Assembly (NCBI RefSeq): GCF_020733635.1
Contig: NZ_JAJFZL010000001.1
Span: 2,666,001-2,730,000 of the forward strand
Length of the DNA stretch: 64,000 nucleotides
Origin: Nocardia spumae
GTDB lineage: Bacteria > Actinomycetota > Actinomycetes > Mycobacteriales > Mycobacteriaceae
Direction of reading: 5' to 3'
A model generated the notes under the pieces. The model worked only from the letters and a program-made list of their open reading frames with translations. It was not told the origin of the DNA and searched no databases. Positions 37,867-51,882 of this stretch are shown here, in pieces (the first letter of the stretch is position 1; every line of letters starts with the position of its first letter). The translations under genes were made by a program, and so were the position numbers.

Positions 37867-38166
37867 CTATTCGCTGTCCGGTTTCATCGGCCACCTCGCG
37901 AAGGACAGACGCGGTGTGACGGTCTCGACATCCGCCACGCACATCACCGCGTGCAGGGTCATGATGCCGATATGGTCGGTCGACGGCGTGATGACGACGT
38001 CCGCCCCGGCCGCACGCGCCTGGTCCGCGAGGGGAATCCGGCTGTTCTCCGGCGACCACACCAGGCAGTAGCCCAGGTGTCGCGCCAAGCGCCGAACCTG
38101 GGCCATATCCCAGTCCAGCGCGGGTGCCTCCGGATGCACCCATCCGAGTGCGATCGGGCGCGTCAC
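37867..38166 (-). CDS. Small resolvase-domain-like protein without catalytic Ser (module 1)
   Basis: 99 residues. The pattern IALGWVHPEA, QVRRLARHLGYCLVW, ADVVITPSTDHIG resembles the N-terminal domain of serine resolvases (strand A, helix with Gln/Arg, GY, then vvvP..dRlgR), but the R-x-S catalytic Ser and the DNA-binding domain are missing. It shares this pattern with the protein at 44703-45143. It overlaps the upstream 34-residue membrane peptide gene by 4 bp and is divergent from the XRE/DUF397 pair. Function unknown. Confidence 0.6.
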   Translation of the reverse strand: MTRPIALGWVHPEAPALDWDMAQVRRLARHLGYCLVWSPENSRIPLADQARAAGADVVITPSTDHIGIMTLHAVMCVADVETVTPRLSFARWPMKPDSE

Positions 38167-38267
38167 CGCCGCCTACCGCCGCGCCGCCGCTCACCTCGCG
38201 GGGGGAGCCGCACCGTCACGACCGTGAACACGACCAGCGCCGCGATCAACAGCACCACCGGCAACAT
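38163..38267 (-). CDS. 34-residue single-helix membrane microprotein (module 1)
   Basis: MLPVVLLIAALVVFTVVTVR gives one membrane helix, followed by an Arg-rich cytoplasmic tail (GERRRGGRRR). Start ATG 38267 has GGGAGAGG about 7 nt upstream, a strong ribosome site that supports translation. The stop overlaps the ATG of the resolvase-like gene (ATGA), so the two are coupled. It has the same position as the 56-residue peptide at 45133-45303. No homologue is recognised. Confidence 0.6.
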   Translation of the reverse strand: MLPVVLLIAALVVFTVVTVRLPPRGERRRGGRRR

Positions 38268-38396
38268 TTCGCACACCTCTCCCTCGTCCGCTTCGGTATG
38301 CCGTCGAGAGTCGAGGAGAGCGAAAGAGGATGTGCGCCAACACGATAACCTGGGAAAACTCATGCGAATCGCCTGGTCGTGTTGAGCAATGCCGCA

Positions 38397-38402
38397 TACA
38401 AT
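38397..38402 (+). promoter_or_regulatory. Candidate -10 element of the XRE/DUF397 operon
   Basis: TACAAT, one base from consensus, lies 53 bp before the TTG start and directly before the palindrome at 38405. A weak -35-like TGGTCG is 17 bp upstream. Confidence 0.45.
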
Positions 38403-38404
38403 CG

Positions 38405-38422
38405 GCGCGTTCTGCAACGCGC
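38405..38422. promoter_or_regulatory. Palindromic operator candidate before XRE/DUF397 genes
   Basis: GCGCGTT and AACGCGC are perfect 7-bp inverted arms around CTGC, beginning 3 bp after the -10 TACAAT, over the expected transcription start. A dimeric HTH protein such as the downstream XRE product could bind here. Confidence 0.55.
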
Positions 38423-38454
38423 ACCGACTTCAGAATGCAACGAGGGGAGAGTCG

Positions 38455-39363
38455 TTGATCGTCGATGGCGATGAATCGGAGGCAGCGGGCAGCACGTTGC
38501 CGCGACGGCAACTCGGACGTTATCTGCGGGAGGCACGCGAAGGATCGGGTCTCACGGTCGAGCGAGCCGCCGCGCTGATGGAATGGCACAAGTCGACCTT
38601 GAGTCGCCTGGAACGTGGATTGACCGAAAAGGTCAGGGTTCGGGATGTTATGGGCTTGTGTGAGGTGTACGGGCTCGATGAGGAGAAGGCCGACGCGGCC
38701 AGACAACTGGCCGAACAGACCCCGGCGCGATCGTGGTGGCGAAGCTATGGGGATGTGATGGCGGCGAAGTTCAACACATACGTCGCATTGGAGGGCGGCG
38801 CCAGCGAATTGGCGATGTTTCAGCCGCTGATCGTGCCGGGAATACTGCAGACCGCCGACTATGCAAGAACGCTTGACCAGCAGTATTTCTCAGAAGGCTC
38901 ACATGACGAGGTGGAACGCGCTGTAGCGCTGCGGATTCAGAGACAGCACGCTGTCACACGCCAACGGCAGCCACTGCGGATCTCGGTCATTTTGCACGAG
39001 AATGTACTGCATACCGTAGTAGGCGGGCCACAATTGATGGCTGCCCAGTTGCGTCACATCGCGGATATGGACACGCGGGAAAACGTCCAGGTGCGAGTCC
39101 TGCCGTTCCGTGCAGGATTTCCCACCGGCATGGTCACGTCGCAATTCATCATCATGACGTTTCCCAAGGACAGCAGGGGCAAGCCGGTTGAGCCGACCAT
39201 AGTGTTCGCCGAGAGTCACACCGGCCACGTCTACCTTGAAAGCGCGGACGACGTGCGTAGGTGCCGACAGGCGTTCCATACCCTGCTGGCAGCGGCCCTG
39301 GACGACCGGCCGAGTAGAGATCTGATCAGAGAGGCAGCAAGGAAACATGAGCGTGGAGCCTGA
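38455..39363 (+). CDS. WhiJ-like XRE regulator with DUF5753 domain
   Basis: 302 residues from TTG 38455, preceded by GAGGGGAGAG; no in-frame ATG or GTG has a better site. The XRE helix-turn-helix spans about 15-70 (RQLGRYLREAREGSGLTVER, MEWHKSTLSRLERG). The DUF5753 ligand-like domain covers about 95-275: MFQPLIVPGILQTADYART, VALRIQRQHAV, ILHENVLHTVVGG, VRVLPFRAGFPTGM. Such proteins pair with small DUF397 proteins across actinobacteria (WhiJ/BldB-type loci) and affect development or antibiotic control. The next gene starts inside its 3' end. Confidence 0.88.
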   Translation: MIVDGDESEAAGSTLPRRQLGRYLREAREGSGLTVERAAALMEWHKSTLSRLERGLTEKVRVRDVMGLCEVYGLDEEKADAARQLAEQTPARSWWRSYGDVMAAKFNTYVALEGGASELAMFQPLIVPGILQTADYARTLDQQYFSEGSHDEVERAVALRIQRQHAVTRQRQPLRISVILHENVLHTVVGGPQLMAAQLRHIADMDTRENVQVRVLPFRAGFPTGMVTSQFIIMTFPKDSRGKPVEPTIVFAESHTGHVYLESADDVRRCRQAFHTLLAAALDDRPSRDLIREAARKHERGA

Positions 39364-39556
39364 TCCGACCACGGCACAGTGGTTCAAATCCAGTCACAGC
39401 TCCGGGGGAGCCGAGTGCGTCGAAGTTGCTTTCCTCGCGGGAAATACAGTCGGCGTACGCGACTCCAAGAACGTGAACGGCCCGGCGCTGGTGTTCACCC
39501 CGGCTGAGTGGGATGCGTTCACCGCCGACGTGGCGGGCGGAAAGCTCGAGCGCTGA
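39347..39556 (+). CDS. DUF397 small protein
   Basis: 69 residues. The family signature is complete: QWFKSSHSSGGAECVEVAF, then VGVRDSKNVNGPALVFTPAEWDAF. It overlaps the XRE gene by 17 bp and is its usual partner; in studied loci such pairs antagonise one another, which is family knowledge and not shown here. The stop lies in a 16-bp tandem duplication. Confidence 0.9.
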   Translation: MSVEPDPTTAQWFKSSHSSGGAECVEVAFLAGNTVGVRDSKNVNGPALVFTPAEWDAFTADVAGGKLER

Positions 39557-39576
39557 GAAACTCGAGCGCTGAGAAA
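39545..39576 (+). repeat. 16-bp perfect tandem duplication over the DUF397 stop
   Basis: CTCGAGCGCTGAGAAA occurs at 39545-39560 and again at 39561-39576. The first copy encodes the last residues and stop of the DUF397 gene; the second lies just outside. Probably a recent slippage event. Confidence 0.85.
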
Positions 39577-39582
39577 ACGGGC

Positions 39583-39630
39583 GAAGCCCGGCCCGGACCG
39601 GGCGCGATCGATCGGTCCGGGCCGGGCTTC
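39583..39630 (+). terminator. Strong hairpin terminator after DUF397
   Basis: Perfect 17-bp arms GAAGCCCGGCCCGGACC (39583-39599) and its complement (39614-39630) around a 14-nt loop, followed by TCTCTGTGTGGTT. It is 26 bp after the DUF397 stop. From here to the tRNA terminator at 39896 no gene is seen. Confidence 0.8.
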
Positions 39631-39895
39631 TCTGTGTGGTTCGTAGGCGGCCGACGAGGCCGCGATCGTCGTGCGCACTCCGTCGCGATGCCTGCGCTCG
39701 CGCGGCTCGCGCGGGCGCCTGAACATCGACCTCGCCGGCGCCCGGTGCCCTCGTCGGCGCCGGGCGCATCCCCTTGGCCTACAGCGGTTTTCGCGAAGGC
39801 CCGCGCATTCCGCACCGGCGCGAGTGGCTGACATCACTGCCCGTCGGACAGGCGAGGCGGGGTTGTCATCGCATACGGTTGCGCAGATACAAGAA

Positions 39896-39917
39896 AGCCC
39901 CGGTGTGAACCGGGGCT
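39896..39917 (-). terminator. Terminator of the tRNA Gly-Cys-Val operon
   Basis: On the minus strand AGCCCCGGT and ACCGGGGCT form a 9-bp stem with a 4-nt loop, followed by TTTCTTGT. It lies 10 bp after the tRNA-Val(GAC) CCA end, a classical rho-independent layout. Confidence 0.8.
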
Positions 39918-39927
39918 GACCTGCAGT

Positions 39928-40002
39928 TGGTGCGCGATACTGGGATTGAACCAGTGACCTCTTCCGTGTCAGGGAAGCGCTCTCCCGCTGAGCTAATCGC
40001 GC
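39928..40002 (-). tRNA. tRNA-Val (GAC)
   Basis: Minus-strand cloverleaf: acceptor GCGCGAT/ATCGCGC, D arm with AGCTCAGCGGGAGAGC, anticodon stem CTTCC/GGAAG with loop CTGACAC (anticodon GAC), and T arm GGTTCAATCC. The CCA end is encoded (39930-39928). Last of three tRNAs on this strand. Confidence 0.95.
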
Positions 40003-40018
40003 GTGGTTCGCCTACTAG

Positions 40019-40089
40019 AGGCGGCGACGGGAATCGAACCCGTGTGCACGGCTTTGCAGGCCGTTGCCTCACCACTCGGCCACACCGCC
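40019..40089 (-). tRNA. tRNA-Cys (GCA)
   Basis: Acceptor GGCGGTG pairs with CGCCGCC (one G-U), U73 as normal for tRNA-Cys, anticodon loop CTGCAAA (GCA) and T arm GGGTTCGATTCCC. CCA is not encoded. Confidence 0.95.
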
Positions 40090-40112
40090 AACCAAGGCCG
40101 GGTTGGCCTTCG

Positions 40113-40185
40113 AGCGGATGACGGGATTCGAACCCGCGACCCTCACCTTGGCAAGGTGATGCGCTACCAGCTGCGCTACATCCGC
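40113..40185 (-). tRNA. tRNA-Gly (GCC)
   Basis: Acceptor GCGGATG/CATCCGC, anticodon stem CACCT/AGGTG with loop TTGCCAA (GCC), T arm GGGTTCGAATCCC. CCA is not encoded. First gene of the tRNA operon, 47 bp after the -10. Confidence 0.95.
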
Positions 40186-40231
40186 ATGCTGCTCTCCGGG
40201 GCTTTCGGGCCCCTTCCGGCTGCGAGAGAGA

Positions 40232-40258
40232 ACATTAGCCCACTACCCGCTTCGTCAA
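40232..40258 (-). promoter_or_regulatory. Promoter of the tRNA Gly-Cys-Val operon
   Basis: On the minus strand TTGACG (40258-40253) and TAATGT (40237-40232) are near-consensus -35 and -10 hexamers with a 15-bp spacer. The first tRNA begins at 40185. The rest of the gap 40259-40638 shows no gene. Confidence 0.6.
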
Positions 40259-40638
40259 CAAATCGGCTGGTAGATGGGGGTAAATGTGAATGACAAGCAT
40301 GTAGTCCGGAAGATGCCTCCCGGTGTCGGCCAGAGGCTTCCGTACGAAGCCGGTCCCGAACCGGACGAATACCTGGATCCAGATCGCGCCCGGTGCCGCT
40401 CCGAGCGTCGGTAGCCGGCTGTCCCTGCGGCCGACACTCCGCATCCCACGCGCGGTCGACTGTCGCGCTGCCGGCCGGACTCGATCGTGGCCGCGCGATC
40501 GCCCACGTCGGCGGGGCTCATTCCGTGCCCGGTTCTCCCGGCCTCGATGCGCCCCGAAGCCACTTGCGCGAGACCCGCTGCGCCCGTTCCTTTTCCGTCC
40601 CTCGCATGCCACGGAAAATCCCCAGTTCAAGGCCCGAT

Positions 40639-40668
40639 TTGGTGTGACACCGGTGATGCGTGTTAAGG
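40639..40668 (+). promoter_or_regulatory. Candidate promoter of tRNA-Val(CAC)
   Basis: TTGGTG (40639-40644), 18-bp spacer, TTAAGG (40663-40668), about 45 bp before the tRNA 5' end. The -10 is a modest match. Confidence 0.4.
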
Positions 40669-40713
40669 TTCCTTCTCGTTCGGAACGGCACTTCCGCCGC
40701 CCCGAATCCCCAC

Positions 40714-40788
40714 GGTCCCATAGCTCAGTGGGAGAGCGCTCGCCTCACACGCGAGAGGTCGCTGGTTCGAAACCAGCTGGGACCACCA
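40714..40788 (+). tRNA. tRNA-Val (CAC), integration target
   Basis: Acceptor GGTCCCA/TGGGACC, anticodon stem CTCGC/GCGAG with loop CTCACAC (anticodon CAC), T arm CTGGTTCGAAACCAG, and an encoded CCA (40786-40788). The antisense strand of its 3' half is read as the last codons of the serine recombinase, marking an element junction. Confidence 0.95.
40745..40788. other. Probable attL: tRNA 3' half shared with recombinase 3' end
   Basis: The recombinase frame enters the tRNA CCA end and stops at 40745 in the anticodon loop. The last 14 or so residues (VPAGFEPATSRV type) are plain antisense tRNA translation, so the recombinase originally ended elsewhere and now borrows host sequence. No second copy of the tRNA end was seen to the right by eye. 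Confidence 0.6.
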
Positions 40789-42430
40789 GAACCTCTTTAT
40801 TCGAAACGGCGACCGTTCGCATGTGTGCATCGCGGCGGTTGATCCTGGTTTTGTCCGCCGTCCGATTTGGGTGGTTTAGGGCTGCCGAGTGAAGGTCAGC
40901 GAACATGCCGGTCTTGTCGTCGGTGATTCGTAGGGCCGTGGCGTCTTCCAGGTCATCGATGTAGAAGCATTCGAAGAACGTCTCGTTCAGCAGTCGCCGT
41001 ACGTCTGGGGCTGCGTCCAGATACAGGCTGTACGGGTCGGCGATGAGGTCGAGGGCGTGACGGAGAACCGTCGTTCCGACGCCGAGTTCTTCGGAAGTGT
41101 TGGTGAGGGCCGCTTCGATGCGGTTGCGCTGGGCTTTGATCTCGATGAGTCTCATGCGCACCTTGGCTTGGGGCATCGAGCCATCGGCGAGCAGATCGAC
41201 CAACCGGTTTTCGCTCTGGTCGAGTTCCTTCATTTGCCGGTTCAGGTTGGCGTGCAGCTCTCGGGTGGTGTTCTGCTCGTCGGAGACGACTTGTTCGAGC
41301 AGGCGTCGCGTCGTGGCGGCGAAGTCGGTCGGCAGCTGCAGAGTGCGGTAGTGGTCGACGATTGCTTCTTCGACGGTCTCGGCCGGCAGGTGGGGGAGGT
41401 CGCAGAGGCCTTGTTTGCTCCTGCGGCAGACGAAGTAGGCGTACCGCACTCGGTTGCGGCCGGTGGAGACGTTGTAGATCAATCTGGCGGTGGTGTCTTC
41501 GTCTCGGCAGCGTGCGCAGAAGAGCCACCCTTTCAGGTAGTGGGCGTGTATGCGGTCCCGGGTGCCGTTGCCGCTGCGTTTGCGCAAGACGTTCTGCACA
41601 CGTTCGAAGAGTTCGTGGTCGATCAGTGGCTCGTGCCGGCCGGGATAGATCTGGCCCTTCCAGGTGACGTAGCCGACGTAGTAGGGATCGCGCAGCATGT
41701 TGTGGAGGGTCGCCGCGGAGACGGGGCGTGGGTTCGGGCGGGCGCCGGTGGGGCGGGACGTGAGGCCCATGTCGGCCATTGCTGCTTCGAGGTCCTCGAT
41801 CGAGTAATCGCCGGTCGCGTAGAGCTCCCATGCTCGAACAACGAGTGATGCGCGTTCTTCGTCGGTCTTGATGGTGTTGACTTGGCGGCCCTCGACTGTG
41901 ATCCGTGCGTTGATGTAGCCCAGTTTTGCCCGGCTGCAGGTGCCGCCGTTCATGGCTTTGTTCAGCATCTTGGTGCTGATGTCCTGGCCTGACAACCGGT
42001 TCTGGGTGTCGTTGAAGATGTCGGTGATGGCGGCCATCATGTCGCCGTAGATGCCGTCGCCGAAGTCTTCCTTGGCCGATATCAGCTTGACGCCGAGCAG
42101 GTCGAGTTGGCGTTTGGTGATGGCGGCGTCGATGTAGTTGCGGAAGGCGCGGGAGCGCATGTAGACGATGACGTACTTGATCTGTGGGTTCTGCTGGAGG
42201 TAGGTGAGCATCCGCTGGAAGGCGGGGCGCTTTTCGATCGACTGAGCCGAGACTCCTGGCTCGACGAATTCCTGGACGATCTGGGCGGGCAGTGTGTGGG
42301 CTCGTTGTTCGACGATCGTGCGTTGGGTGGCAATGGAATTGCCGTCGGGGTCGATGTCGATGGCGGTGTTCAGCTGCTTCTTGTCCGAGACGCGCAGGTA
42401 GGCGACAGCGAGCACGACGGTGCCGTTCAA
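40745..42430 (-). CDS. Large serine recombinase (integrase)
   Basis: 561 residues from TTG 42430, with GAGGAAA 6 nt upstream. The resolvase domain has the catalytic Ser in VAYLRVSDKKQ (residue 15) and VIVYMRSRAFRNYIDAAI. The recombinase domain follows (AKLGYINARITVEGRQVNT, LHNMLRDPYYVGYVTWKG), then a zinc ribbon (FCARCRDEDTTARL with FVCRRSKQGLCDLPH) and a coiled coil (LHANLNRQMKELDQSENRL). The final part runs antisense into tRNA-Val(CAC) and stops in its anticodon loop. Directional integration/excision of the element is the expected role. No excision factor (RDF) gene is recognised. Confidence 0.9.
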   Translation of the reverse strand: MNGTVVLAVAYLRVSDKKQLNTAIDIDPDGNSIATQRTIVEQRAHTLPAQIVQEFVEPGVSAQSIEKRPAFQRMLTYLQQNPQIKYVIVYMRSRAFRNYIDAAITKRQLDLLGVKLISAKEDFGDGIYGDMMAAITDIFNDTQNRLSGQDISTKMLNKAMNGGTCSRAKLGYINARITVEGRQVNTIKTDEERASLVVRAWELYATGDYSIEDLEAAMADMGLTSRPTGARPNPRPVSAATLHNMLRDPYYVGYVTWKGQIYPGRHEPLIDHELFERVQNVLRKRSGNGTRDRIHAHYLKGWLFCARCRDEDTTARLIYNVSTGRNRVRYAYFVCRRSKQGLCDLPHLPAETVEEAIVDHYRTLQLPTDFAATTRRLLEQVVSDEQNTTRELHANLNRQMKELDQSENRLVDLLADGSMPQAKVRMRLIEIKAQRNRIEAALTNTSEELGVGTTVLRHALDLIADPYSLYLDAAPDVRRLLNETFFECFYIDDLEDATALRITDDKTGMFADLHSAALNHPNRTADKTRINRRDAHMRTVAVSNKEVLVVPAGFEPATSRV

Positions 42431-42582
42431 TGGGTTTCCTCCTCGGTGGTTTTCGACTCTTTCGCCAGCTCGATGACGACTCGGCTGAGCCTGCGAAGAT
42501 CGGGCGGATCGCGCCGATCGCTTTCGACGACAAGGTGATGCTCACGTCGCTCGCCGATAGGTCTGCCGCCGCCGCTAGGCAT
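42427..42582 (-). CDS. 51-residue ORF coupled to the serine recombinase
   Basis: Starts at ATG 42582 (MPSGGGRPIGERREHH) and ends in a helical, charged segment (LRRLSRVVIELAKESKTTEE). Its TGA overlaps the TTG start of the recombinase (TTGA), and the recombinase ribosome site is inside it. Such short helical proteins ahead of actinobacterial serine integrases are familiar; a role as accessory or directionality factor is only a guess. Confidence 0.55.
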   Translation of the reverse strand: MPSGGGRPIGERREHHLVVESDRRDPPDLRRLSRVVIELAKESKTTEEETH

Positions 42583-43208
42583 CGGACATTCCTGAGACGC
42601 GCCGGAGGGCCGAACTGCGGGCTGTTCGAGACTGGTTCCAGCTATGAAGTTTCTCGGCTCTGCCTCGAATTACAAGAACCGAATGATTGCTGGCGGATAG
42701 CTGTCGGTGTGGCTCATCGGTGAGGAACCAGCGTTGCTGGAGTGGTCGGCATGGTGCGCAATGCCGTACCGCCTGGCGGAAGGTGAGTCCTGCGGTCGTC
42801 CTGCCCGCATCGGACGGATCCACGGTTGCCGCGGAAGTAAGAATCGGTGGCGAAATGTAGGCAGCCGCACGGGGACAGCTTTCGAATCCGACTAGCGCGC
42901 TCGGCGTGCCGGGCGTGCAGCTGTGTTCGGAATTGTCGGCGCAACTACCTCGGCGCAAATTCCAGAGTCGCAACATGGTCGAGGCCTCGATTCGGTTCCT
43001 ATCGAGTTCCTCGCGCTACGCCAGATACGTTCGAGGCTTCCATCCGTGTCGCCAAAGGGGAAGGGGTATATCGAATCTTGCTTCTTTTCTTCGGAGAATT
43101 TCAGATCCGATCCACCTCGACGCCCAAAGTGGATTCGGGAGTGTCACGAATGATAAGAAGACAGTTCGCGATCAGTAATCGGTCGGTTCGCAGGGCTTGG
43201 CGCTGGTG
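42583..43208. other. 626-bp stretch without a recognisable gene
   Basis: Open frames on both strands exist but have no convincing ribosome sites, are rich in rare-looking Cys/Arg/Ser runs and match no family. Base composition is closer to even than in the flanks. It may hold the promoter of the recombinase unit and remnants of lost genes. Confidence 0.4.
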
Positions 43209-44372
43209 TCATTCCGCTCCGATGTCTGGACCGCTAGGCCAATACGTCATGAGGTCGCCGGGAGTGTGCGGTGCCTGATAGACGGCTCGCAAGATCTGAT
43301 CCTTCGGCGCACCAGGGGTGTCGGCGAGGCGAACGAACCAGTCTATTCCGGCGGAGTATGACCACATGTAGGACCGCAAGAGAATGTTGGCGCCACGGTC
43401 GGTGAGCAAGTCGGCGATCTGGGAATCGGTCCAGTAGGGCACGCAGCGCCGGGCGCGCTCTGCTAGGTCGAGAATCGGGTGTCCGGCTGCCAGCGCGAGG
43501 TGTAGCTGGCCGCGCACCAGTTGGTGGTAGTGGTCCAATCGCACTCGGGCGGTGAGGTTTTCGTCGTCGGGAGTGACGAATAGCGGCATTGCCTGTGCGA
43601 GGCCTTCGAACAGGACTTGGTTCGATGAGTGGACCGAGCATAGGCGGATCCACGGCACGTCTTCTTGGGCGCAGCGTGCGGAGATGCTTGCGAATTGGAG
43701 CGCGTGGCCGAGGATTTCGTGGAGTGCGAATTGGCGGGCTACCACCTGGGTGAAGCGGGCGTTTCGGAGGTTGATTCGTAGTCGGGGTTTCTGGCCGGCG
43801 CCGTCGAGCCAGTAGCTCCAGTAGGCGTCGACGTCAACGGATTCGATGGTGAGGTCGTAGTCTGCGGTCGATCCGGTTGCGGCGCGGACGCTCGGCTCGA
43901 GGTCGGCTGCGGCTTCGCGGATCGCGTCCGCGCTGACCGAGACATCTAGCGGGCCTTCGGCTTCCATCAAGTCGGTCAGGGTCTTGGGTCCCCAGTCTAT
44001 GCCGAGTGCGGCGAGGCTGTGTTGTGCTCGCTCGAGGTGTTGCTGGAGGTATTCGTCCGACCATCCCTTGGGTTCGCATCCCTGCGTGCGGCGAATGTAT
44101 CGCTCGAGGGAGTCGTGTTCTCCGAGCAGTGCGGCGCAGTAGGCGATGTCTGCGTCGATTCTGGTTGCGAGGGCGGTGTCGCCGGCTGCTGCGGCTTCGG
44201 CGTGGAGTTCCGACAGCCTTTGCAGGGCTTCGAGCCTGTTGTCGACTGCCGGGACGTCTGAAGTTATCGGCGAGCAGTCGTAGTCGATGACGGGGTGCGC
44301 GCCGCGTTCGATTTCGTATCGGTTCCAGGCTCGTAGAACGTGCTCGGCGGCGTCACGCAGTTGCCTGGTCAC
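43209..44372 (-). CDS. Predicted gluzincin-type zinc metallopeptidase
   Basis: 387 residues. The zinc motif is FALHEILGHALQFA (HExxH) near residue 225, and a downstream Glu in QVLFEGLAQAMPLF fits the third ligand of gluzincins such as the M2/M3/DUF885 type. The N-terminal 180 residues are helical (RLEALQRLSELHAEAAAAGD). No signal peptide or membrane helix, so probably cytoplasmic. Substrate unknown. Its start overlaps the end of the frameshifted upstream gene by 20 bp, implying a joint transcript with the small genes to its right. Confidence 0.6.
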   Translation of the reverse strand: MTRQLRDAAEHVLRAWNRYEIERGAHPVIDYDCSPITSDVPAVDNRLEALQRLSELHAEAAAAGDTALATRIDADIAYCAALLGEHDSLERYIRRTQGCEPKGWSDEYLQQHLERAQHSLAALGIDWGPKTLTDLMEAEGPLDVSVSADAIREAAADLEPSVRAATGSTADYDLTIESVDVDAYWSYWLDGAGQKPRLRINLRNARFTQVVARQFALHEILGHALQFASISARCAQEDVPWIRLCSVHSSNQVLFEGLAQAMPLFVTPDDENLTARVRLDHYHQLVRGQLHLALAAGHPILDLAERARRCVPYWTDSQIADLLTDRGANILLRSYMWSYSAGIDWFVRLADTPGAPKDQILRAVYQAPHTPGDLMTYWPSGPDIGAE

Positions 44373-44683
44373 GATCGATCTCCCAACGTAGCGTCACCGA
44401 TTCGTTCGGTCGCAGATAGTCTCTGGTCAGCGTGACCACGATGTCATCGCCGTCGTAGTGCCACAGTAGGTCCTCGGTCGCGCTGTTGATCAGGTCGTTC
44501 GCTGCACTGCTCGCTGGTGCAGGTGAACAGCTGCGCGGTGATCCGGCCGGGCGAACCGGTGCGATGAGGTGCTGCTGCACCGGCGGCCAAGTCGCCAGCA
44601 CTTCCTGCTGTGTACGTCATCTCCCGATACACCCGTCGCTTGGTTACCGCGACCTGCCGGGCAGGGCTGATGGAATCTTCCAC
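44353..44683 (-). pseudogene. Small gene broken by a one-base frameshift near 44608
   Basis: From GTG 44683 one frame reads EDSISPARQVAVTKRRVYRE then MTYT; removing one base at about 44608 joins it to QEVLATWPPVQQHLIAPV and onward to YDGDDIVVTLTRDYLRP ending at 44353. Joined, the product has about 110 residues with sensible composition throughout; unjoined, both parts turn into low-quality sequence. Either a true pseudogene, a sequencing error or programmed frameshifting. Family not recognised. Confidence 0.5.
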
Positions 44684-44702
44684 GCTTCCACTCTGGAGCC
44701 AA

Positions 44703-45143
44703 TCAGTGGCCAGTGTGAGAACCGGGCGCCTGGGGCTGCTGAAAGTTGGTTGTATTTAAACCGGTTCGCACGTCACTGCTGCCTTCGATGGGTATGGACG
44801 TATCCAGGGGATTCCTCCGGCCTCCCTCCGGGGCGTATCCACCGCCGCGTTCGTAGGTCCGACTGGTCGCAAGGTCGTGGATATCCGTCATTTCGCCAAG
44901 TTCGGCGGGTATACGCCCCCGTAGATGGGCGATGTGGGGAACGATCAGTAGTTCGATCTCGTGGGTGGCTACGTGATCGATGAGGGCCTCCGGCACGATC
45001 AGGCTGCTCCCTCGAGTCATGCCGACGTAGTCGTAGCCCAAACGAGCGGCGATGCGCTGGGATTGGAAGAGCAAGGGTTCGATCGCTGTCACCAGGTCGA
45101 CGCAGACGTAACCCATTGCCCGCGGTAGAGTTTCAGCGTTCAT
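44703..45143 (-). CDS. Small resolvase-domain-like protein without catalytic Ser (module 2)
   Basis: 146 residues. AMGYVCVDLVT, SQRIAARLGYDYVGM, IELLIVPHIAHLRGRIPAEL follow the resolvase N-terminal pattern and line up with the 99-residue protein at 37867-38166, but R-x-S is absent and there is no DNA-binding domain. The last 55 residues are Gly/Pro/Ser rich and probably disordered. Overlaps the upstream membrane peptide gene by 11 bp. Function unknown. Confidence 0.6.
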   Translation of the reverse strand: MNAETLPRAMGYVCVDLVTAIEPLLFQSQRIAARLGYDYVGMTRGSSLIVPEALIDHVATHEIELLIVPHIAHLRGRIPAELGEMTDIHDLATSRTYERGGGYAPEGGRRNPLDTSIPIEGSSDVRTGLNTTNFQQPQAPGSHTGH

Positions 45144-45303
45144 AGGTATCTCCGTGCGGATCGGCGGGGTCGGTGTTCTCCCGTTCGATGCGATGGCGAA
45201 TTTCTGTGACGCGTCGTTCCGGTGGAATGCGTTGCGGCCAGCACACGATGGTGATGTAGATGATGATCGTCAGGATGACGCAGCCGATGAAGAGTGTGAT
45301 CAT
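45133..45303 (-). CDS. 56-residue single-helix membrane microprotein (module 2)
   Basis: MITLFIGCVILTIIIYITIV is a membrane helix, followed by a charged tail (PPERRVTEIRHRIERENTD). ATG 45303. The stop lies 8 bp inside the next gene, giving translational coupling. Size, helix-first layout, position and coupling repeat those of the 34-residue peptide at 38163-38267. No homologue recognised; the ribosome site is weak. Confidence 0.5.
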   Translation of the reverse strand: MITLFIGCVILTIIIYITIVCWPQRIPPERRVTEIRHRIERENTDPADPHGDTYER

Positions 45304-45678
45304 GGCCGGTTCGCACCGCCCAGACGGCGTACCGATGATGTCCTGGTTCTGACCGGTATGTATCCGGACGAGCGATCAGCTCTCGCTACCCTGCTGCTGG
45401 GCATGGCGTCCCCTTCCTGAGCGCGGCTGGTCTGCAGCACAGCGCCATGTGTCCGTGTTCTGTCGTGGAAAGCAGCTGCCGCCGGGGATGGTGAATCCCT
45501 GGCATCTGCCCCGGCGGGCGTCACTTGTGGTGCGCCGGGTGTGCTGGTGGGATCGGGGCTCGACCCGGCGGCAGCGCTGTTCCCAACTTTCTCGCGCTGG
45601 TGCAGGTCACACCAGGTACAGATGGGGTACGTGCGGGGTACTCTCGGCGTACTCGACCCCTGACGACGGATACTGCTG
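45304..45678. other. 375-bp divergent control region of module 2
   Basis: Between the membrane microprotein (minus) and the XRE/TPR regulator (plus). It holds an inverted repeat CCGCCGGGG/CCCCGGCGG (45479-45487 with 45509-45517, with a nested GGGAT/ATCCC hairpin) and four phased operator repeats. No gene is seen. Confidence 0.55.
45614..45657 (+). promoter_or_regulatory. Four 11-bp direct operator repeats (iterons) before the XRE/TPR gene
   Basis: Units at 45614, 45625, 45636 and 45647 read AGGTACAGATG, GGGTACGTGCG, GGGTACTCTCG and GCGTACTCGAC. GTAC recurs exactly every 11 bp, so the sites lie on one face of the helix. They end 21 bp before the start codon at 45679, over the expected core promoter. 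Likely binding sites of the adjacent regulator. Confidence 0.65.
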
Positions 45679-47025
45679 ATGCGATCGTGTGGACGATGGA
45701 CCGGACGAGAAGTAGCTGCATTTCGGCACGCGCTCGGTATGAAGCGCGAGGCTTTTGCGGCTCATGCCGGTGTGTCTGTGGAAGCGGTGCGTAAATGGGA
45801 GCGGCGACGCGAGACGATCGTTCTGTCGGTGCCTTACGCGGCGCGCATGGATCGCAAGCTCCGCGAAGCCGAAGCGTTTGTCGTAGAACGATTTTGGGCG
45901 CTGCTGCCTGACAAGGACGCTGATGCCGAGGCCAATTGCGACGAAGAACGAGTGCCGGAGCCCGAAAGTGCTGATCGCATGTTCGTGCCGGCGCATACTG
46001 CGTCGGGTGAGGTTGTGTTGATGTCTATTCCACGACGCACGTTCATGGCCGGCGTTGGGGTTGGTGCTGTCGGTGTCGTCGTGGACCGGGCGGTGTCGGG
46101 GATCCCGCTGGCGGAGGCCTTCGCCGGTAGCGATATCGACCACGTCAAATTCTTCCTCGACAAGCGGATGAACATCATCGAGGCGGACAATGTCTACGGC
46201 TCGGCGAGCACACTCGCCGAAGTATTGGGTGCGATCGCCCGCATGCAAGCTCTGAAGCAGGCGAAAGTCGTTGATTCTCAGCGTATCTTGCGGCTGTTGG
46301 CGTTGTATGCGGAGACTGCGGCCTGGCAGTACCAGGACCAGCGAATGTTCGGCGAAGCGCAGCATTGGGCCGAGAAGGCTTTGACGTGGGCACATCAACT
46401 GGGCGACAACTACTGCATCGGCATGGCGCTGGTTCGGATGAGTCAGCTGGCGTCGGATCAAGGCGATGGCGCAAGCAGCGGTGAACTCGCCGAAGCCGCG
46501 AAACGGGCTGCGCCGGAAAGCTCTTTGTTCGCCGCCGCAGCTGTCGCCTACGGCGCGCACGCGCTGTCGCTCGAAAAGAATGCGACCGCGAGCGCACGCG
46601 CCTACGACGATGCCCGCCTTCTGATCGAGAAGGCCGACGCCGATCCTGTCTGGGGATTCTTCCTCGACCACTCCTATATCGACGCCTACCAAGCACACAG
46701 CCTCGTCGCCCTCGGTGACCATCACTCCGCCGCAGAACAATTCGACGCGGCGACCGCTCGCATGCAGTCCGGCTATCCGCGTGACCGGGGTGTGTACTTG
46801 GCGCGGGCAGCGGTGGCGCATATGACCGCGGGGGATATCGAGCCGGCGGCGTCGGCGGGGAAGCAGGCTTTACGGGTTGGCATTGCCACGAATTCGGGCC
46901 GGATCATGGAGCCGGTGATCACGCTTGCGGCGTTGATGGATCCGCACAGCACCCAGCCCGGGGTGGGCGAGTTCGTAGAGGAGTTCGATCAGTGGAAGGT
47001 AGCGAGTTGCCCAAGCCGTATGTAG
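45679..47025 (+). CDS. XRE regulator with TPR domain
   Basis: 448 residues. N-terminal helix-turn-helix (FRHALGMKREAFAAHAGVS, AVRKWERRRETI), then the RRTFMAGVGVGAVGVVVD segment found in actinobacterial XRE-TPR regulators of the NsdA type, then helical TPR-like repeats to the end (LLALYAETAAWQYQDQRMFG, HQLGDNYCIGMALVRMSQLA). Likely senses a ligand or protein through the TPR part and controls its own divergent promoter region. The reductase gene starts 34 bp before its stop, so they form an operon. Confidence 0.85.
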   Translation: MRSCGRWTGREVAAFRHALGMKREAFAAHAGVSVEAVRKWERRRETIVLSVPYAARMDRKLREAEAFVVERFWALLPDKDADAEANCDEERVPEPESADRMFVPAHTASGEVVLMSIPRRTFMAGVGVGAVGVVVDRAVSGIPLAEAFAGSDIDHVKFFLDKRMNIIEADNVYGSASTLAEVLGAIARMQALKQAKVVDSQRILRLLALYAETAAWQYQDQRMFGEAQHWAEKALTWAHQLGDNYCIGMALVRMSQLASDQGDGASSGELAEAAKRAAPESSLFAAAAVAYGAHALSLEKNATASARAYDDARLLIEKADADPVWGFFLDHSYIDAYQAHSLVALGDHHSAAEQFDAATARMQSGYPRDRGVYLARAAVAHMTAGDIEPAASAGKQALRVGIATNSGRIMEPVITLAALMDPHSTQPGVGEFVEEFDQWKVASCPSRM

Positions 47026-47702
47026 TGCTCTCGGTGGCGGTGAGTGTGGATGGCTATATCGACGACCTCGTTCCCGAACGCCTCTACCTGTCGAACGAGG
47101 CGGACTTCGATCGAGTCGACCAGGTCCGCGCCGGATGTGATGCCATCCTGATCGGGGCGGAGACATTGCGGCGGGACAATCCGCGTTTGATCATCAAGAG
47201 CGCAGACCGTCTCGAGGCTCGCGCCGCCGCGGGGAAGCCCGCGCATCTGCAGAAGGTCGTGGTGACGGCTTCCGGCAACCTGGATCGTGAGGCGAAGTTC
47301 TGGCACCACGGCGTGGAAGAACGCCGTCCGATCGTCTACACCTCCGACACGGCAGCGCCGAAGCTGCGTGAACGGTTCGGCGACCTCGCCACAGTCGTAA
47401 CGCTCGGCGACACAGTGGATTTCGGTACTCTTCTCGATGACCTCGGTACGCGCGGCATCGGCCGGGTGATGATCGAAGGTGGTACCTCAATACACACCGC
47501 GGTACTTGCCGCCGGGTTGGCCGACGAACTCCATGTCGCTGTCGCGCCTTTGCTGATCGGGCAGGGGGATGCGCCCCGCTTCGTCAATCCGGCGGAGTTC
47601 CCTGGAGGGTCTCGTCGACGGATGCAGTTGGCCGATGTGACCCAGATCGGGGATGTTGCGCTGTTGCGATACTTTCCGAAAGTCCCGTCCGCAGACGGCT
47701 GA
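46992..47702 (+). CDS. RibD C-terminal domain (dihydrofolate reductase-like) protein
   Basis: 236 residues. VVLSVAVSVDGYIDD, CDAILIGAETLRRDNPRL and RVMIEGGTSIHTAVLAAGLAD are the three blocks of the RibD-C fold, giving an NADPH-binding reductase. It has no deaminase domain. As an element-borne gene it could reduce a pterin, flavin precursor or unknown carbonyl. It overlaps and depends on the XRE/TPR gene. A second, chromosomal member of this fold is at 28367-29158. Confidence 0.85.
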   Translation: MEGSELPKPYVVLSVAVSVDGYIDDLVPERLYLSNEADFDRVDQVRAGCDAILIGAETLRRDNPRLIIKSADRLEARAAAGKPAHLQKVVVTASGNLDREAKFWHHGVEERRPIVYTSDTAAPKLRERFGDLATVVTLGDTVDFGTLLDDLGTRGIGRVMIEGGTSIHTAVLAAGLADELHVAVAPLLIGQGDAPRFVNPAEFPGGSRRRMQLADVTQIGDVALLRYFPKVPSADG

Positions 47703-47751: not shown

Positions 47752-50700
47752 TTACAGGCCGAGGTCGGTGATTGCCGATCTTTCGTGGACCTGTTGCTCA
47801 CTGCCGGAAGCGGTTTCGTACTCGAGGTCGGTGGTGACGGGCAGTGCGGTGTCTACCGCCGAGTCGATGGCAGAACCCGCGGATGGGATATCGACACCAC
47901 CGGAGCCGCCGTCGGCGGGGGCGGTCTCTGCACTGTCCATTGGTGCGTGCTTGGGGAGTTCGAGGCGGTGCCAGAGCGCTGCGGCGGGCATGTCGTCGGG
48001 GAGGGGACGTTGGGCGGCGGCGGTGGTGAGGAGGGCTTCGATGTCGTGGCCGGCGTGGGCGGCGGTGTCGAGGTGTTGGGCGAGGGTGGGCCACCAGGGG
48101 TCGGTGGTGATTCGGGTGTCGATGCGTTTGGCGAGTGCTGACCAGGTGTGGGTGGCGGTGTGGAGGTCGCCGAGGGTGTCGGTGACGTGGGTGTCGAGCC
48201 GGTGTTGATGATGGCGTTCGGTGGTGGGGTAGCGGCGTGGTCCGGTGGGGCGCAGGTCGGTGTCGGGGATGTGGTGGGCTGCGCGCCAGACGGCGAGTTC
48301 TGCGATGAGGGAGGGGTTTTCGAGTAGTGGTTGTGCCCATGGTGGGGCGGTGGCGTGTGTCCACGTTCGGGTGTCGCTGGTGATTTGTTGGGTGAGGGTG
48401 GTGATGATGCGGGCGCGTGCGTCGAGGTGTTCGGTGAGCTGGGGGTCGGTGATGTGGTGAGGGTGTCGGGGTGTCCAGGGCAGTGGTCCGGGTTGGGTGG
48501 AGTGTGTTCCGGTGGTGTCGAGGCGCCAGTCGAGGACGGCGGCTGGGTCGTGGGCGGTGTCGAGTTCTCGTTGGGCGGCCGCGGTGTGGAGGGCGTGGAT
48601 GGGGTCGTGTCCGGTGAGGGCGAGGGTGGCGAGGTGGTGGCGCAGGACGGTGTAGGCGGGTGCGTCGGTGAGCCCTGGAAGGAGGTTTTCTGCGGCGGTG
48701 TCGATGTGGTCGAGGGTGGCGGGGCTGAGGGTGTGTTCGATGGCGATGCCGGTGGCGTCGAGGTAGGTGTCGATGGCGGGGCCGAGTCGTTTGTGGGGGT
48801 TGAGGGTGTCGCGGAGGTGGTTGTGGGCGCTGGTGTGGGTGGCGTCGCGGGCGAGGATGTGTTGCAGCACTTCGGTGCTGGTGCGGGGAAGGACCGCCGG
48901 TTCGGTCCAGGGGGAGGGTTCGTCCGGGTTAGTGGTGGTGGGGATGTAGGCGTGGTTGGTGTGGATGCCGCGGGTGAGGGCGACGTAGAGCTGGTTGCGT
49001 GATTCGTGGCCGGTGAGCACGGTGTGGCAGGTGTCGGTGGTGATGCCTTGGGCGGAGTCGAGGGTGAGGGCGTAGCCGAGGCGGACGTGTTCGGCGACGT
49101 AGTCGGCGGGTAGCAGTGTTGTGGCGCCGGGTTTTCCGTTGTGGGTGTGGTGGCTGGCGGTGAGGCTGCCGTCGGGGTGGACGGTAGTGATGGTCCATCG
49201 GTAGCCGTTGCGGACCCAGTCGTTGTCGCCGACGGGGAGGCGGGGGTTGTTGCGTCGGGTGCAGATGATGTCGCCGGCCGAGGCGGCCAGTCCGTCGGCG
49301 AGGACGACTTCCGGACCGTGCGGGGCGAGCGTGCGGGTGAGTCGGTCGGTGCGGGCGCGGGTGTTGAGGTCGGTGACGATGTCGTGCGTGGTGGCGAGCA
49401 TGAGGGTGTTTCGGCCGTGGTGGTGGTCGGCGAACCATGCGACATACGCCTTGTCCGCGATCGCGGCTGGGGTTCCGGAGTGGACGCGTTGATGGTCGAG
49501 GTAGAACCCGAGCGCGGCGGGATCGCCGTCGCGCAGCATGAGACTGGCGCGGGCTTCGGCCGGTGAGGCGAAGCGCACGACCTCGGTGACGGTGGGTGTT
49601 TCGGCGTTGTGGGTGGTGTCGATGCCGGTGCCGCCGGGCTCGATGGAGGGTAGTTGTTTGTCGTCGCCGAGGCATCGGATGGTCGCGTCGCGGGTGGTGA
49701 GGAATTCGAACAGGCGCAGACGTTTGTCGTCGCCGAGCTTGACGTGCTCGTCCACGATCACCAGGGTGCGGTGGTCGATCTGCAGTAGCCATTCCGGTAA
49801 CGGCGGCGGGTGTGTCGAGTCGGAAATCGGCTGTGGGGCGTGTACATGCTGGTCGACGATGTGTAGGAGGCGGTCGACGGTTTCAACTCGGATGCCGGTG
49901 TTTTCGGCGAGGACCGCAGCTGCGGCGGCGGTGGGGGCGAGGCCGAGGACAGTGCCGCCGGAGGCGTGCCAGGCGCTGACGAGCACGCGCATGGCGGTGG
50001 TTTTGCCGGTGCCTGCGGGCGCGTTCGCGACCGCAATCCGCGCGGGAGACGTGGCAAAATACGTGATGAGAGCTGTTTGACCGCTGTTGAGCTGCGCGTG
50101 GTTGTTCGCGGGATCAGCGTCGTAGGCGTCGATCGCTGAGGTCACTAGATCGTGCGGCAGTGTGCGGGCGCCGGGCTGTATGGAGAGGTCGAGGAGGCGT
50201 TGTTCGGTGTCGAGTCGACGTGTCGAGGTGTAGGTCTGGGCACCTGAAACGGTGTAGACACTGGTGCCGTCGCGGCGTCGCAGGACCTCAGGTGAGTGTT
50301 GAAGGACAGATTCTGCGGTGATGTCCGGGTCGCCGCGGGCGAGGGATCTGGTGGGCGATAAGGCTTCACGGACGACGGCTTCCACTACGTTGGGCCACTG
50401 CGTCGGCTGAATGTGTCCGCGGGTTTGGCGTTCGGCTTCGGCGCGAATGTGGTGGTGCTGCCACACCGAACGCTGCCCGGAAACAACATCGACGACCTCG
50501 TCGGCAGTACGGGAAATCCACGCCTCATCGATCGTCGAACGAGGATGTGCGGAGCGATCCAGCACTGCTTTCACGGTGTCCCGGACAGCGTCGGGTCCGC
50601 CGAGGAGTGTCGCTGCATCGTGGTGCCAGTCGCGGCGTTGCTGAGCGTATGAGCGCGAGAGATGTTTGGAGGGGCGGGTTTCGAGAGTGGCGCGCTCGGC

Positions 50701-51882
50701 GAGAGCGAACAGTTCTTTCGGTGTCGGTTCGCGCCCGAGCTGCTGCTGAAACGACACCGCGAGAGAGTCGAGCCGGTGGGTGATGGCGGCGTCGCGGCGC
50801 GACCAGTGGCGTATCAGTTCGGCTAGGATGCCAGTGATTTCGCGGATGGGGCGCTTGTTGGGTGTGGGTGCGGGGCGTTCGGTGAATTGGATGCCGAGGC
50901 TGGTTTCGAGATGGTGTTCGAGGCGGGTGTTGTAGATCTCGCTGACCACGACGAGGTTTCGGTAGAAGTGGGTCGCATCCAGAGTCCGCCATTTGCCGTC
51001 GAGGGTGCGCACGCGGTTGGCGATGAGCATGTGGGTATGCAGATCGGGGTCGCCGGAGCGGGATTCGCGGTGGGTGAAGCGTGCGGCGACGAGTCCTTCG
51101 ACGTCGACTTGCCGCACGCCGCGGGTGCCGAGGCGGGTGTAGGTGGCGTTGTTTTCCAGCCAGGCGATGGCGTCGTCGACGGCAGCATTGTGGGCGGCCT
51201 GGATGGTGTCGGCGATGGGTTTGGGGGCGATGGCCCACAGCGCGGAGACGCTTTTGACGGGAGAGAAGGTGATGTCGAACCCGGCGACCGCGGCCGATTG
51301 GGGGCGGGAGATGCGAGCGACGAATCCGGAAAGTTCTCGATCGTCGAGCGGTGCGCGATCGTAGTTCTCGACGAACATCGCTGTGGCGACCTCGGTGCGG
51401 ATGTGGGCGCGAATGTCTTCGTCGATGGCGGTGTTGGCGTCGAGTCCGTGGGCGAGGTTGTGATCCCGATAGGCCCGGGCGCAGCGGGTGCGGAAGGTGT
51501 TGTCGCCGTGGCGTGCCGGGAAGGCTTTCCTGAGCCGGCTGGCTTGTTTGGCCGCATACACAGCGTCTTTGGGTTTGGCACCCTTCGCTATCGCTTCGGT
51601 GACGATCTCGTATTCGATGGCGGTCGCGTTGGGGTGGCGGCCGAGCCCGAACAGGCACCGCATCTGGTCCTCGGTGACCTGTTCGCCTGCTGAAATACCG
51701 AGGGCGGCAAGGCCGGTGCCGTGCCACGTGCCGGGTGCTTCGCCGCGGGTGGAGTAGTAGTCGGCGAGGCTGGAATTACCCAGGTCGGTGGCATCGGCGG
51801 CGGCTACCTGGCGTTGGTAGTACAGGTAGCTGGTTCCGGCGAGGATTTTGTGCAGCGTCGCTGTCACGTATCCATCAGACAC
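47752..51882 (-). CDS. MobF-type relaxase-helicase (TraA/TrwC family)
   Basis: 1376 residues from GTG 51882 (or GTG 51867). The relaxase domain fills about residues 1-330: paired Tyr in SYLYYQRQ and DYYSTRG, and the HUH metal site in THRESRSGDPDLHTHMLIAN (the final HTH). A SF1 RecD-like helicase follows with Walker A NAPAGTGKTTAM near 620 and Walker B TLVIVDEHVKLGDD, where most relatives have DEAxM. UvrD-like C-terminal motif: LDSAQGITTDTC and QLYVALTRG. The last 400 residues are His/Thr/Pro rich. Nicks oriT and unwinds DNA for conjugal mobilization. Confidence 0.9.
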   Translation of the reverse strand: MSDGYVTATLHKILAGTSYLYYQRQVAAADATDLGNSSLADYYSTRGEAPGTWHGTGLAALGISAGEQVTEDQMRCLFGLGRHPNATAIEYEIVTEAIAKGAKPKDAVYAAKQASRLRKAFPARHGDNTFRTRCARAYRDHNLAHGLDANTAIDEDIRAHIRTEVATAMFVENYDRAPLDDRELSGFVARISRPQSAAVAGFDITFSPVKSVSALWAIAPKPIADTIQAAHNAAVDDAIAWLENNATYTRLGTRGVRQVDVEGLVAARFTHRESRSGDPDLHTHMLIANRVRTLDGKWRTLDATHFYRNLVVVSEIYNTRLEHHLETSLGIQFTERPAPTPNKRPIREITGILAELIRHWSRRDAAITHRLDSLAVSFQQQLGREPTPKELFALAERATLETRPSKHLSRSYAQQRRDWHHDAATLLGGPDAVRDTVKAVLDRSAHPRSTIDEAWISRTADEVVDVVSGQRSVWQHHHIRAEAERQTRGHIQPTQWPNVVEAVVREALSPTRSLARGDPDITAESVLQHSPEVLRRRDGTSVYTVSGAQTYTSTRRLDTEQRLLDLSIQPGARTLPHDLVTSAIDAYDADPANNHAQLNSGQTALITYFATSPARIAVANAPAGTGKTTAMRVLVSAWHASGGTVLGLAPTAAAAAVLAENTGIRVETVDRLLHIVDQHVHAPQPISDSTHPPPLPEWLLQIDHRTLVIVDEHVKLGDDKRLRLFEFLTTRDATIRCLGDDKQLPSIEPGGTGIDTTHNAETPTVTEVVRFASPAEARASLMLRDGDPAALGFYLDHQRVHSGTPAAIADKAYVAWFADHHHGRNTLMLATTHDIVTDLNTRARTDRLTRTLAPHGPEVVLADGLAASAGDIICTRRNNPRLPVGDNDWVRNGYRWTITTVHPDGSLTASHHTHNGKPGATTLLPADYVAEHVRLGYALTLDSAQGITTDTCHTVLTGHESRNQLYVALTRGIHTNHAYIPTTTNPDEPSPWTEPAVLPRTSTEVLQHILARDATHTSAHNHLRDTLNPHKRLGPAIDTYLDATGIAIEHTLSPATLDHIDTAAENLLPGLTDAPAYTVLRHHLATLALTGHDPIHALHTAAAQRELDTAHDPAAVLDWRLDTTGTHSTQPGPLPWTPRHPHHITDPQLTEHLDARARIITTLTQQITSDTRTWTHATAPPWAQPLLENPSLIAELAVWRAAHHIPDTDLRPTGPRRYPTTERHHQHRLDTHVTDTLGDLHTATHTWSALAKRIDTRITTDPWWPTLAQHLDTAAHAGHDIEALLTTAAAQRPLPDDMPAAALWHRLELPKHAPMDSAETAPADGGSGGVDIPSAGSAIDSAVDTALPVTTDLEYETASGSEQQVHERSAITDLGL

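Follow-up and report, generated by a model that had tools for sequence, protein, structure and literature searches.

In a 64,000-nt stretch of the Nocardia spumae genome (the window; positions 2,666,001 to 2,730,000 of contig NZ_JAJFZL010000001.1, here G000:C1:2666001-2730000, inside a 7.07-Mb genome), two gene modules have the same architecture: genes for a membrane peptide and for a small resolvase-like protein, which we call a pseudo-resolvase, are oriented divergently from a regulator gene and its partner gene. The pseudo-resolvases form a family that occurs in many copies within a single one of the sampled genera and mostly adjoins genes for XRE-type regulators. A membrane peptide with conserved coding sequence accompanies part of the family, and a conserved hairpin precedes many first genes of these small operons, mainly at modules with XRE-TPR regulators. 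The reading we favor, tentatively and with somewhat less than even confidence, is that in this Nocardia module an XRE-type regulator switches a mostly divergent operon of small cargo genes, the cargo being a domesticated recombinase fold. The original prediction, which had been made from the letters of the window, placed the open reading frames (ORFs) correctly in both copies, including their overlaps of 4 and 11 nt and the divergent layouts. The features are:

37867..38166, minus strand: copy 1 pseudo-resolvase, 99 amino acids
38163..38267, minus strand: copy 1 membrane peptide, 34 amino acids; 4-nt overlap with the copy 1 pseudo-resolvase
38268..38454, no strand: intergenic region between the divergent genes of copy 1, with inverted repeats at 38267-38279/38313-38325 and at 38338-38345/38377-38384
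38455..39363, plus strand: copy 1 XRE-DUF5753 regulator, WhiJ-like (Pfam DUF5753 1.1e-50, HTH_31 4.7e-16)
39347..39556, plus strand: copy 1 DUF397 protein, BldB-like (Pfam 8.4e-24)
44703..45143, minus strand: copy 2 pseudo-resolvase, 146 amino acids; 32 homologs, profile match to the copy 1 family
45133..45303, minus strand: copy 2 membrane peptide, 56 amino acids; 11-nt overlap with the copy 2 pseudo-resolvase
45448..45526, minus strand: copy 2 hairpin element (model R1), weak (30 bits), 145 nt 5' of the peptide start
45679..47025, plus strand: copy 2 NsdA-family helix-turn-helix (HTH) regulator (NCBIfam NF053720, 153 bits, cut-off 75)
46992..47702, plus strand: copy 2 RibD_C reductase (PF01872, 4.8e-40), overlapping the end of the NsdA-family regulator gene

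The pseudo-resolvase family and its predicted fold

The two small proteins of the window matched each other in BLASTP with an E-value of 0.002 (pair comparison), and profile-profile alignment of their families by hhalign gave 92% probability (E 6e-7, 65 columns). Bridging paralogs were matched by both the copy-1 and the copy-2 profile. By these comparisons, the two proteins belong to one family, and the homology postulated in the original prediction was borne out. Database searches returned 57 homologs of the copy 1 protein, the named ones being from Nocardia except for one Mycobacterium-labelled metagenome protein, and 32 homologs of the copy 2 protein, all named ones from Nocardia. In a sample of 118 Nocardia genomes, the copy-1 profile matched in 102 at E<=1e-8, with 1-17 matches each among the matches listed, and the copy-2 profile in 17, with 15 strong places in 7 genomes. 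In the genome of N. spumae itself, the copy-1 profile has 10 matches and the copy-2 profile 6; some of these are fragmentary, and several are common to both. A class-wide search found matches at E<=1e-5 in four of 394 genomes, all within one of the 137 genera sampled; among the matches listed, 12 candidates were scored per genome in this search and 37-41 in the genus searches. After removal of 19 members that were not intact, 123 of 142 distinct members were retained for residue and neighborhood counts, and some counts were made in detail in eight genomes picked for few contigs and the presence of family matches.

Pfam offered no convincing family for any member scanned, and of the families listed at E<=1 for the 29 members of alignment A2 and the 35 members of alignment A1, none was PF00239, the family of serine recombinases. 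Some family copies sit on viral contigs and others on small contigs. Among plasmid records, the copy 2 protein was not found and the copy 1 protein occurred only in one N. farcinica record. Three short contigs of the N. spumae assembly (C3, C4 and C5; L019, L021 and L026) carry copies, those on C4 and C5 looking disrupted. A remnant of a copy-1-type gene at G000:C1:3396671-3396814 (L002, L029) comprises the C-terminal half only, its DNA being 80% identical over 126 nt.

The model of the copy 1 protein, a single domain, was matched by serine recombinases at all of ranks 1-9 of VIA-align, so a resolvase-like catalytic-domain fold, as the original prediction had proposed, is predicted for copy 1. 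The model of copy 2 has a pLDDT (predicted local distance difference test) of 77, with low confidence and no elements beyond residue 100; the fold match is that of the copy 1 model. In serine recombinases, the catalytic Arg and Ser are numbered R8 and S10. The corresponding loops of the window proteins, GWVHPEAPALDW and GYVCVDLVTAIEP, contain neither Ser nor Arg in the register of the hhalign alignment, and neither protein has a Ser between the first strand and the first helix. The position equivalent to Arg68 is His in 119 of the 123 members. A C-terminal DNA-binding domain was found neither in the 99-residue nor in the 146-residue protein. Thus, in contrast to the PF00239 recombinases that copy 1 resembles in predicted fold, the window copies lack the loop Ser, carry His at the Arg68 position, have no DNA-binding domain and fall below Pfam detection; the lack of an R-x-S motif and of a DNA-binding domain had been recognized in the original prediction. 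The small protein might nevertheless take part in recombination of the mobile elements carrying it, either actively or in a regulatory role, as its recombinase-like predicted fold in copy 1, the copies on viral contigs and a Ser near the catalytic position in many relatives could suggest. The missing catalytic residues, the size of only 99-146 amino acids without a DNA-binding domain and the gene numbers in N. spumae make this highly improbable: since there are two PF00239 genes versus 11 family matches, most copies have no neighboring PF00239 recombinase gene. We rather consider the family as a case of a recombinase fold possibly kept without catalysis, and as a warning that a resolvase-like look of such small proteins does not equal recombinase activity.

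Regulators and membrane peptides beside the cargo genes

In the first set of loci, 61 of 81 family matches had an XRE-type regulator gene within 1.3 kb, either divergent or directly preceding the member in the same orientation (85 family matches minus the four fragments L021, L026, L029 and L140). In the eight genomes, such a regulator was located within 1.5 kb of 52 of the 67 intact members, 43 times divergent and 9 times co-directional. The XRE-TPR class was found near 35 of 85 members (84 from the search plus C1:6660606, added by hand); 2000 random placements gave 1.1 on average and at most 6. Viewed from the regulator side, 34 of 144 XRE-TPR regulators adjoin a family member; this set comprises 59 of 86 and 85 of 110 matches, HTH-only, short and overlapping ones having been dropped. 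Control regions contained 5 HTH genes in 400 kb. The suspicion that the two window loci exemplify a recurring unit is supported by these numbers, and a chance resemblance of copy 1 and copy 2 was rejected because the families match in hhalign and the arrangement recurs across the genus.

The regulators of the two window modules differ in type. Copy 1 has a DUF5753 regulator, the ORF of which opens at 38389, with a Shine-Dalgarno-like sequence preceding the TTG at 38455. The copy 2 regulator passes the curated cut-off of the NsdA family of TPR-like regulators (NF053720), and its Pfam matches to HTH_31 and TPR_16 are below the cut-offs. Compared with the NsdA family, it is set apart by facing an operon of hairpin element, peptide and pseudo-resolvase. 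A paralog of this regulator with 70% identity is divergent from the second copy-2-type module of the same genome, at C1:6660606, which is a paralog of the whole module including regulator, RibD_C and peptide. RibD relatives also adjoin the modules L027 and L096. Weak matches of regulators to HTH_VI, capH, RmrA and control proteins were taken as noise.

The membrane peptide has, in copy 2, a single hydrophobic segment followed by a tail of the form WPQRIPPERRV..I..R. All 13 loci of the copy-1 clade, which was delimited by motif and score, had a one-span ORF with the same 4-nt overlap. In the copy-2 clade, 14 of 15 loci had a membrane ORF overlapping the pseudo-resolvase gene or within 17 nt of it, 12 of them with a WPQRIP-type tail; the exceptions are L095, which has no membrane ORF, and L091 and L092, which have a longer protein. 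A comparable upstream-ORF test on 275 control genes gave 9 positives. The proportion of nonsynonymous differences (pN) was lower than that of synonymous ones (pS) in 12 of 12 hand-chosen, non-independent peptide pairs from both clades, indicating that the peptide coding sequence is conserved. A profile of the tail had 32 distinct matches in the loci studied and none in the 400-kb control, although the E-values of the iterated profile are optimistic because it was trained on these loci. In databases it matched 122 proteins; of the 120 listed, those with a named source were all from Nocardia, one of them labelled CcoQ/FixQ-like at the source. The single-span peptide is likely membrane-anchored. 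A match of the copy 1 peptide to the Conotoxin family of Pfam (E 0.095, below the cut-off) was taken as noise.

Across the family, a peptide was in range at 38 of the 123 intact members, 29 times upstream and 9 times downstream. The original prediction had described the peptide as part of the unit; its upstream conservation in both clades agrees with this, but as a constant part it had to be rejected. The peptide comes and goes as an optional part of the module. That none was found at most members (85 of 123) also bears on the possibility of a toxin-antitoxin or conflict module, in which the membrane peptide or the small protein would be a toxin restrained by the XRE regulator. Many paralogs, copies on small and viral contigs, and the former proposal of XRE/DUF397 pairs as toxin-antitoxin systems, mentioned in the available parts of two articles (PMC7159879; PMC10364602), would fit such a system. 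On the other hand, in 43 of 52 cases the cargo gene diverges from that of the regulator instead of sharing an operon with it, no convincing toxin or defense family was detected in Pfam, with PADLOC giving weak matches only, and the available part of one of these articles states that 14 XRE/DUF397 pairs of Streptomyces coelicolor did not behave as toxin-antitoxin systems (PMC10364602). We therefore judge this explanation unlikely.

Still less probable is peptide quorum sensing of the RRNPPA type, with the membrane peptide as pro-signal sensed by the XRE-TPR regulator. Some modules do have an XRE-TPR-like regulator next to a very small membrane ORF. Apart from the lack of a visible peptide in most modules, the conservation of the tail extends over modules whose regulators differ, whereas a signal would be expected to diversify, and the upstream peptide genes overlap or closely precede the pseudo-resolvase gene.

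The hairpin element

The pattern of the original prediction was right, but it missed a conserved element. Upstream of many family members we found the GC-rich sequence CCYCGGCGGYGGGYGCNNNCCA, preceded by a complementary arm, so that a hairpin can form. With at most one substitution, it was present at 26 distinct sites, which account for 28 of 123 upstream regions, and not once in 800,000 control strand-bases; matches with 3-4 substitutions are near chance, the control containing 1 with 2, 14 with 3 and 74 with 4. The 400-kb control regions hold two family members (L163 and L174) and one element match (L163), and the control backgrounds are thus overestimates. In the window and 11 module loci, Rfam 15 had nothing above the gathering score but tRNAs.

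A covariance model (R1), built from 35 of 49 candidate sites, gave 51 matches at E<=0.01 in the eight genomes, 16 of which were training rows. Of these matches, 22 stand upstream of a known member; the gap to the member's match is 5-25 nt in 14 cases and larger, up to 338, in the others. Within 500 bp of an XRE-TPR gene were 31 of the 51 (random mean 0.35, maximum 4 of 2000) and 18 of the 35 non-training matches, one of the latter being a reverse-strand echo of the same palindrome. Behind 14 matches that are divergent from XRE-TPR genes there was no known member. At 29 sites there was no known member. Of the 20 of them that were inspected, 8 have a remote family member as first gene according to an iterated profile; others encode WPxRIP peptides or small proteins that could be placed in no family, and several face XRE-DUF5753-like operons, one of which was checked and holds DUF6879. 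On viral contigs, a motif-only search yielded 18 stretches with 4 strong model R1 matches: regulator, element, peptide and pseudo-resolvase are all present in L360 and L367, regulator, element and peptides in L361, and the strong match in L372 has no other module part.

The element could act as RNA leader or, alternatively, as DNA site, either as operator of the regulator or as promoter element for a shared factor. The latter is a serious possibility, in our estimation the less probable of the two. A DNA site would be in keeping with the position between regulator and cargo, 80-115 bp from the regulator in 17 of 25 divergent cases, with the strong sequence conservation of the dyad and with weak covariation. 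In 35 aligned sites with a 14-pair stem, 91.2% of the 468 cells are paired, with 9 cells changed on both sides. Of 500 shuffles, 1 reached the paired percentage and 52 the count of doubly changed pairs, and RNA covariation is for the latter reason suggestive only. Nor does distance decide between RNA and DNA, because both sides are similarly constrained, the spacing to the cargo being 5-25 nt in 14 of 22 cases; the idea that only the distance to the cargo is fixed was accordingly rejected. What makes us lean towards RNA is that the same sequence stands before operons of two XRE-TPR classes and of XRE-DUF5753 regulators, which would be needless for a regulator-specific operator, that five elements lie between a co-directional regulator and its cargo, and that 35 of the 468 stem cells are G-U, which keeps an RNA stem but breaks a DNA dyad.

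Besides the pseudo-resolvases, other small cargo genes were seen at these sites. A second type, behind the element or beside the pseudo-resolvase gene in L345, L355, L339, L091 and L092, has two Cys and an AGRMVPD/GAITPD-like end, and no Pfam family was found for L345 and L339. Cargo proteins of 76-86 amino acids with a CCGSxW stretch lie behind an element facing an XRE-DUF5753-like operon in L350 and L351, the former without a Pfam family. In L126, L125, L276 and L123, CAGGGGA direct repeats 11-14 nt apart are located just 5' of the cargo start, one copy of each probably being the Shine-Dalgarno sequence.

A possible switch and its relation to known systems

In S. venezuelae, WhiJ9 controls the divergent iosA gene, and overexpression of iosA or abaA6 results in a sporulation-deficient phenotype, according to the available part of the report (PMC10294661). 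The WhiJ-BldB loci with iosA or a neighboring abaA described there are, as here, paralogous loci in which an XRE regulator (WhiJ) and a DUF397 protein (BldB) stand beside a small cargo gene. Copy 1 matches this gene order, XRE-DUF5753 followed by DUF397, around a different cargo, and because it has the WhiJ-BldB-IosA order we infer a regulator-controlled cargo operon. The regulator would probably switch this operon by way of the intergenic region between them, on the model of WhiJ9 and the divergent iosA. The hairpin, common to the fronts of different regulator classes, may form a second gate in the cargo mRNA. We picture the single-span peptide with its basic tail on the cytoplasmic side, where it would hold the co-translated pseudo-resolvase at the membrane, and the cargo might work through a bound partner instead of DNA cleavage. 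By analogy to IosA and AbaA, released cargo may hold back growth or differentiation; both the tethering and any growth effect are conjectural, and so is the membrane-to-regulator signalling that the original prediction had suggested. We consider it rather doubtful that this extends to a genus-wide network of membrane-tethered, non-catalytic recombinase-domain effectors, in which paralogous XRE-controlled switches, as many as a dozen and a half per genome and often equipped with a new cis-acting RNA leader, gate growth or differentiation.

Several observations, in addition to the inconclusive covariation and spacing of the hairpin and the many members at which no peptide was found, weigh against the proposed switch. 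No regulator was in range of 15 of the 67 intact members in the eight genomes. Regulator and cargo trees were weakly correlated (r 0.11, reached in 30 of 2000 permutations, and r 0.33, reached in 1 of 2000), which led us to reject close co-evolution and makes a specific regulator-cargo complex unlikely; regulators have been swapped between cargos. In the copy 1 intergenic region (38268-38454), there was neither a match to the element model nor, with up to one mismatch, a site resembling the direct repeats of WhiJ9, CGNNCTCAAC. The copy 2 element scores only 30 bits, its paralog at G000:C1:6660293 reaching 65.5 bits. Regarding the fold, Foldseek had no match at E<0.001, and hhalign to resolvases was weak (70% for alignment A4, 15% for A3, 6% for A2 and 1% for A1). 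For relatives outside the window, it is less certain that catalysis has been lost, because 89 of the 123 members have a Ser at the reference position adjoining the aligned catalytic one, 31 have the loop Arg, and 27 have both.

The Nocardia modules differ from the WhiJ-BldB loci in their cargo, a pseudo-resolvase with or without a membrane peptide, and in the use of XRE-TPR regulators and the hairpin by many of them. The predicted fold of IosA is reported, in the available part of the article, to be distinct from solved structures (PMC10294661), and its comparison with the Nocardia cargo is one by description. The Scr1/Scr2 XRE-DUF397 pairs are regulator-partner pairs as in copy 1, and no pseudo-resolvase cargo is mentioned with such pairs in the available part of the relevant article (PMC10364602). 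Among the papers listed in our search of Creative Commons-licensed PubMed Central text, none dealt with Nocardia modules of this kind. The modules join three families for which no Pfam or Rfam entry was found, the pseudo-resolvase, the WPxRIP peptide and the hairpin, to regulators with mostly obscure targets, and they offer a small unit for studying the choice of targets by XRE-TPR and XRE-DUF5753 proteins outside Streptomyces.

Copy 2 lies on a putative integrated element. An ORF for a large serine recombinase (40745-42430) runs into an opposite-strand tRNA-Val gene (40714-40788), as one would expect if an element had integrated at this gene. No opposite end of the element was found within the window, and 40714-40830 has no exact repeat of at least 16 nt elsewhere in the window that could represent an attachment site. 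From their sequence look, we take a 1376-residue protein encoded at 47752-51882 to resemble a conjugative relaxase/helicase and the ORF at 52645-55860 to be kinase-like, both on the same putative element.

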